From Parvibaculaceae bacterium PLY_AMNH_Bact1 (GTDB lineage Bacteria > Pseudomonadota > Alphaproteobacteria > Parvibaculales > Parvibaculaceae), in contig CP126168.1 in the NCBI GenBank assembly GCA_032881465.1, forward strand, positions 3,473,501 to 3,537,500: a stretch of DNA of 64,000 nt, read 5' to 3'. Below the pieces are notes generated by a model. That model had not been told where the DNA came from. It was given only the letters and a program-made list of their open reading frames with translations, and did no database searches. The translations under genes and the position numbers were made by a program. Below are positions 1 to 1,500 of the stretch, piece after piece. Every line of letters begins with the position of its first letter. Position 1 is the stretch's first letter.

Positions 1-461
1 ACAGCCGCGAGATAGACGAGCCGCTGCATGGTCTGCCAGCCGGGGCCCATCGCCCGGACTGAGACCGCGTTTGAGGTGAGCGCCAGCGGCACAAAGATCA
101 GAAACGCGATCCAGCCCGTCCAAATGCCAAGCTTCACCACATCCGCCATCACCGCATCAAGCGTGCCGAGATCAATCACATAATAAAGCGTATGCAGCGC
201 CGCATAGCCGAACGCCGCGACGCCCAAATAGCGCCGCCGAGCCATCAACCAGCGAATAGGACGCGCACTCGGAAACATCATGCGCAAGGGCGTCAACATC
301 ATCGCGATGATCATGAAGCGCGCCGCAAATTCTCCCGTCGGATGAAGCAGGCGTTCAAGGTCGCGCCCACTCAACGCACCATTGATCATGGCCACAGACG
401 GCAGGGCGATCAACGCCCAGAAGAAGTATGGAGAATTGAGGAAGGACTTTAGCGAATTCAT
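1..461 (-). CDS. MsrQ-like ferric-reductase-type haem membrane protein (partial, runs off left edge)
   Basis: The first 153 residues are visible from the ATG at 461. They match the ferric-reductase-like transmembrane family to which MsrQ belongs, the haem b quinol-oxidising partner of the periplasmic methionine sulfoxide reductase MsrP. Visible family features are a GEFAARFMI helix, a TPLRMM segment, the RRRYLG motif leading into a helix with a haem-ligand-like His (ALHTLYY), a following helix with a PLALTSN exit and the GPGWQTMQRLVYLA start of the next helix. The usual RPYIT-type motif is replaced by LGIWTG, so assignment to MsrQ rather than a sister family is likely but not certain. No msrP is visible; it could lie beyond the edge. 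The sodC gene lies upstream on the same strand, 136 nt away. Confidence 0.75.
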   Translation of the reverse strand, partial: MNSLKSFLNSPYFFWALIALPSVAMINGALSGRDLERLLHPTGEFAARFMIIAMMLTPLRMMFPSARPIRWLMARRRYLGVAAFGYAALHTLYYVIDLGTLDAVMADVVKLGIWTGWIAFLIFVPLALTSNAVSVRAMGPGWQTMQRLVYLAA

Positions 462-597: not shown

Positions 598-1167
598 TTA
601 GTCGGCCTGAAGAACACCGCAGGCAACCCGCGCGCCCGCACCGCCAATCGGTTGCGTCACGTGGTCATCCGCATTTTCATGAATAATGAAAGTAGACCCG
701 TCTTCATCCAGCAGATTATTCGGCCCCTCGGTGAGCGACACAAGAGAGGTAAAGGCCTCCATCTCACCCACGCCATCTGCGCCGACAAAGAGGTTCGGCA
801 GATCGCCGGGCTCCGGACCTTCCGGGTTCAGGAGACCATGCCCGCCGGGAACAAGCCCTACATGGCCTTTCGCCGTCTTAAAGCCTTCATGGGGGTCACA
901 CACGCCGTGGGCGTGGAGATGCAGCCCATGCTTGCCGGGCGCAAGCCCCGAAACTTTCAGGTGAATAAGCACGCCGGTCGGTCCCTGGGTAAGCGTCGCC
1001 TGCCCCACATCATGCCCAGCCGTATTGATGAGCGTCGCCGCCGCCGTTGCAGGCACCGCTCGTTCCTCGACTTCTTCAGCCGCCCCGTCCGCCGCCATGG
1101 CCAACTGGGCCCCACCCCCGACAAGGCTGAGGGAGAGTAGAACAGTGGAGAACGGAAATTTGGGCAT
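598..1167 (-). CDS. sodC: Cu/Zn superoxide dismutase, exported
   Basis: 189 aa. Periplasmic Cu/Zn superoxide dismutase converting superoxide to peroxide and oxygen. The chosen ATG gives a normal signal peptide (about residues 1-26, ending AMA). The reading frame stays open upstream but runs through the tRNA, so the longer start is wrong. Copper ligands are visible at H83, H85, H102 (bridging) and H163, zinc ligands at H102, H110 and D122, and the disulfide pair at C90/C183. The remaining zinc ligand position, three residues before the GDLP aspartate and nine after H110, is Glu119 where the family has His. Spacing to human SOD1 (8 and then 9 residues) is exactly kept, so this looks like a true substitution. 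The start has no clear Shine-Dalgarno sequence. Confidence 0.93.
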   Translation of the reverse strand: MPKFPFSTVLLSLSLVGGGAQLAMAADGAAEEVEERAVPATAAATLINTAGHDVGQATLTQGPTGVLIHLKVSGLAPGKHGLHLHAHGVCDPHEGFKTAKGHVGLVPGGHGLLNPEGPEPGDLPNLFVGADGVGEMEAFTSLVSLTEGPNNLLDEDGSTFIIHENADDHVTQPIGGAGARVACGVLQAD

Positions 1168-1424: not shown

Positions 1425-1500
1425 TGGTGCCGCTTGGGTGATTTGAACACCCGACCCCATCATTACGAATGATGTGCTCTACCAACTGAGCTAAAGCGGC
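1425..1500 (-). tRNA. tRNA-Thr (anticodon CGT), CCA encoded
   Basis: The minus strand folds into a full cloverleaf. The acceptor stem is GCCGCTT/AAGCGGC, the D arm GCTC/GAGC, the anticodon stem CATCA/TGATG with loop TTCGTAA (anticodon CGT, codon ACG) and the T arm GGGTG/CACCC with a TTCAAAT loop. The discriminator is A and CCA is encoded. A run of six T follows the CCA and probably ends transcription. Confidence 0.95.

Follow-up and report, generated by a model that had tools for sequence, protein, structure and literature searches.

The sodC gene near the start of the window, i.e., the whole stretch of 64,000 nucleotides that was analyzed, encodes a Cu/Zn superoxide dismutase (SOD) whose zinc ligands depart from the canonical set, three His plus one Asp, in that the third His is replaced by Glu119. 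This raises the question of whether the replacement is an oddity of this gene or a trait of a family, and of whether the second metal site still works. The features concerned are collected in Table 1.

Table 1. Features of the sodC locus (window coordinates) and their basis.
Feature	Position	Strand	Basis
sodC, periplasmic-type Cu/Zn superoxide dismutase, 189 aa	598..1167	minus	translation; Pfam PF00080; fold match
Hydrophobic N-terminal leader resembling a Sec signal peptide	1093..1167	minus	by-eye reading of translation
His102 codon, bridging Cu/Zn His	862..864	minus	translation, alignments
His110 codon, second zinc His	838..840	minus	translation, alignments
Glu119 codon (GAG), place of third zinc His	811..813	minus	translation, alignments, codon check
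Asp122 codon, zinc Asp	802..804	minus	translation, alignments
His169 codon, electrostatic loop, possible substitute ligand	661..663	minus	His here in 127/164 complete acidic-type sequences and 27/190 His119 sequences
MsrQ-like ferric reductase transmembrane gene, overruns window start	3..461	minus	
tRNA-Thr, anticodon CGT	1425..1500	minus	

The open reading frame was translated from an ATG at 1167 to a stop codon at 598-600. Its product matched Pfam Sod_Cu (PF00080) with 110.2 bits (cut-off 28.9; E 1.3e-31), and no second PF00080 match was found in the 3.74 Mb host genome. An AlphaFold2 model, built without metals from 15 sequences (mean pLDDT 84.4), adopted the SOD beta-barrel fold. Its best structure match was 1s4i (Z 23.4, rmsd 1.8, 149 aligned), followed by 9m59, 1xtm and 8imd. 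In comparison with one close relative over 145 codons, dN/dS was about 0.05, a rough value only because dS was about 0.95; on this comparison, sodC is under strong purifying selection.

The MsrQ-like gene lies directly downstream of sodC, and the tRNA gene lies upstream. The MsrQ-like product matched Pfam PF01794 (36.9 bits), while its match to the NCBIfam MsrQ model remained below the cut-off. Among distinct loci with flanks, such a gene adjoined sodC at 3 of 91 acidic ones and at none of 80 His ones. Since all three loci belong to close relatives of the window, the pair represents a local neighbourhood rather than a system, and the gene was rejected as a partner of sodC.

With regard to the metal sites, all four copper histidines (H83, H85, the bridging H102 and H163) were present, as were the cysteines C90 and C183, which are invariant in alignment A1 and stand here for the residues of the disulfide, not for the bond. 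H102, H110 and D122 were retained, and Glu119 aligned with the third zinc His of both YojM and PaSOD in pairwise alignments. The 8-9-3 spacing of H102/H110/E119/D122 was identical to that of the zinc ligands of the solved relatives, and no other His was found in the aligned protein at a place equivalent to 119. Thus, the alignments bore out the original prediction that the third zinc His had given way to Glu at conserved spacing, while Asp122, the copper ligands and the disulfide residues were kept. Both the window and a close relative use the codon GAG for this Glu, which many other related sequences share; therefore, Glu119 is no sequencing error.

The same prediction had called the site an unusual variant, and this part did not stand. 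Of 361 distinct SodC domains, 190 carried His at position 119, 87 Glu, 78 Asp and 6 another residue, so that 165 of the 361 were acidic; this set is enriched and gives no frequency estimate, because the acidic group was the target of the later searches. When 387 alphaproteobacterial genomes were drawn evenly, 89 of them yielded 95 SodC matches. Of these matches, 65 had His, 18 Asp, 8 Glu and 3 another residue, and one lacked a readable SOD ORF, i.e., 26 of 95 were acidic. Another 120 places came from 397 genomes drawn across the phylum (102 His, 8 Asp, 7 Glu, 3 Val). Asp or Glu is thus the common state in a large alphaproteobacterial subfamily, which largely matches one of the outcomes that the original prediction had named as refuting it. 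Glu119 is a family trait of this group and not an oddity of the window gene.

Scanning of genome contigs identified 14 relatives, 12 of them acidic and two, from Sphingobium, with His. The closest group held nine Glu relatives, from Rhodobiaceae, strain Mf 1.05b.01, a Rhizobiaceae MAG, two Ruegeria, Neomegalonema, Jannaschia, Marinobacter and a Granulosicoccaceae MAG, the last two lying outside Alphaproteobacteria. The other three acidic relatives comprised an alphaproteobacterial MAG sequence with Glu and two Brevundimonas sequences with Asp.

The acidic sequences formed one group, a fork of 59 (53 acidic and 6 His; SH-aLRT 89), in a tree inferred with the trait columns left out by a quick method that left many forks open. 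This first tree held 199 sequences, left after 234 had been thinned by identity. For the enlarged tree, 353 sequences were thinned to 257, from which 53 with the gammaproteobacterial loop type were left out, yielding 204. Across these 204, at least 6 changes between acid and His were required, as compared to at least 11 between Asp and Glu among the acidic sequences, as expected if the carboxylate is what is kept. Eight sequences (L123 to L127 and L246 to L248) were left out of both trees; L127 was counted as truncated, and L128 was dropped since no SOD ORF of at least 70 aa was found.

Some sequences stood apart. Two His119 sequences within the acidic group (L079 and L100) carry Asn in place of the zinc Asp at 122. 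Three SOD-like sequences from large proteobacterial genomes (L246, L247 and L248) have Val in place of the bridging His and have lost the second zinc His. A pair of nearly identical SODs (L040 and L069), whose electrostatic loop resembles that of eukaryotic enzymes, occurs in one alphaproteobacterial genome of 2.0 Mb.

The residues at 119 and at the other ligand places bear on what the second site does. Of 353 distinct sequences in which the copper histidines and H110 are intact, 188 had His at position 119, 87 Glu, 77 Asp and 1 Pro, i.e., one of His, Asp and Glu in 352 of 353. The copper ligands, H102, H110, D122 and D167 were unchanged in all 164 complete acidic sequences. Drift to other residues would be expected at a useless position. 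The restriction at 119, together with the retention of the other ligands, favours a functional second site, with two His and two carboxylate ligands, over decay. Conservation of the second site would also follow from a structural, metal-free role.

The window protein is probably a working, secreted-type Cu/Zn SOD of the Caulobacter-type alphaproteobacterial SodC group, with its second site retained and zinc as the likeliest occupant. Sequence, predicted fold and conservation support this explanation; that the metals are bound, that Glu119 coordinates directly, that the enzyme is active and where it resides are inferred from them. Copper would be held by H83, H85, the bridging H102 and H163 and would be the catalytic metal, as it is in other SodCs. 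The second site would consist of H102, H110, E119 and D122, two His and two carboxylates in place of three His and one carboxylate. Glu119 would touch the metal, presumably zinc, and H169 of the electrostatic loop may help at this site.

The main rival is modelled on the fungal Cu-only SODs, whose E110/D113 signature is matched by E119/D122 of the window SodC. It supposes that the bacterial enzyme holds no zinc, that a hydrogen bond from Glu119 sets the orientation of the bridging His, like that from fungal E110, and that Asp122 takes the role of D113. The spacing invites this reading, as the steps of 17 residues from the bridging His to Glu and 3 from Glu to Asp are the same in H102/E119/D122 and in H93/E110/D113 of Candida albicans SOD5, the Glu of the fungal enzymes is described as orienting the bridging His, and a full electrostatic loop is retained by the mycobacterial Cu-only SOD (PMC13017621). 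However, H110, the equivalent of SOD1 H71, was among the residues kept in all 164 complete acidic sequences, and the electrostatic loop is not shortened in the fungal manner, its length of 17 residues from the last copper His to Arg being that of the zinc-binding PaSOD. Fungal Cu-only SODs are not known to retain a residue equivalent to H110. They are described as being without a functional zinc site and without an extended electrostatic loop, in a source that says of their zinc site only that it is not functional (PMC13017621). The retained H110 and full loop of the window SodC argue against a simple match. Moreover, Asp is about as common as Glu in the acidic group (78 versus 87), whereas the fungal residue is described as Glu (PMC13017621). 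A bacterial enzyme of this Cu-only kind is considered unlikely.

Alternatively, the lost ligand could have been relocated, with H169 or a His two to four residues past the bridging His replacing it and the carboxylate at 119 being secondary. One or the other of these histidines was found in 152 of the 164 complete acidic sequences as compared to 30 of 190 His119 sequences, and the pattern held at first in 50 of 50 complete sequences and then in 15 of 15 new ones. It failed in the third data set: 12 of the 164 acidic sequences carried neither His, and all 12 were among the 100 new acidic sequences. If the two histidines replaced each other, loss of H169 should have been clearly rarer where the near His is absent, but it was lost in 12 of 68 sequences without the near His and in 25 of 96 with it. 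Independent-pair tests on the tree, with few usable pairs, gave no support, and H169 is also present in gammaproteobacterial-type enzymes with His119. The association with the acidic group can be accounted for by shared ancestry alone. After the 12 exceptions and the lack of independent-pair support, relocation was rejected as the main explanation; as a rival it is retained, though improbable. Five of the 12 exceptions (L296, L355, L360, L369 and L371) have Met three residues past the bridging His.

A decaying, functionless zinc site, tolerated since copper alone suffices, has in its favour that copper-only SODs are active (PMC13017621), but it is very hard to reconcile with the near-exclusive His, Asp or Glu at 119, the unchanged other second-site residues and the low dN/dS given above.

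A working second site of the proposed kind would be of wider consequence. If the acidic group binds zinc via the carboxylate, a sizeable fraction of Alphaproteobacteria would fall outside the usual description of the site as three His and one Asp. With natural Asp and Glu enzymes alongside a few with His, the group would allow a direct comparison of what the second site contributes to pH range, to stability and to the choice of metal. The enzyme family itself is known; its acidic zinc-site group is not remarked on in the open literature searched, nor was an acidic third zinc ligand (Asp or Glu) in a bacterial SodC mentioned there, which is a weak negative as the search covered mainly open papers.

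Among known systems, the Caulobacter-type SodC family (NCBIfam NF047632, SodCCaul) was the best NCBIfam match of the window protein. The score of 163 bits remained under the cut-off of 250 bits, and the window protein carries Glu119, not Asp. Six other acidic sequences that were scanned also fell under the cut-off. Those above it (L173, L297, L295 and L252) all have Asp119 and belong to the same acidic group. The Caulobacter enzyme is reportedly a periplasmic copper-zinc SOD, to go by the title of Steinman and Ely from 1990; it presumably contains zinc, and the residue it carries at the place of 119 is judged from near relatives.

PaSOD of Paenibacillus lautus (8IMD; Z 22.6) and YojM of Bacillus subtilis (1S4I, 1XTM; Z 23.4) share the fold and the zinc-loop spacing of the window SodC, and PaSOD in addition its electrostatic loop length. 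The zinc ligands of PaSOD are His185, His193, His202 and Asp205 (PMC10432803). Both enzymes have His at the third zinc position, where the window SodC has Glu. They also differ from it elsewhere: PaSOD is described as lacking the disulfide (PMC10432803), while the window SodC has both cysteines, and wild-type YojM lacks two copper ligands in the alignment of the 1s4i chain. It is a tentative possibility that, among bacterial Cu/Zn SODs, one large branch has rebuilt the second site as His2-(Asp/Glu)-Asp, perhaps with another second metal or a helper His from the electrostatic loop, and so forms a natural series between the classical Cu/Zn and the Cu-only SODs.
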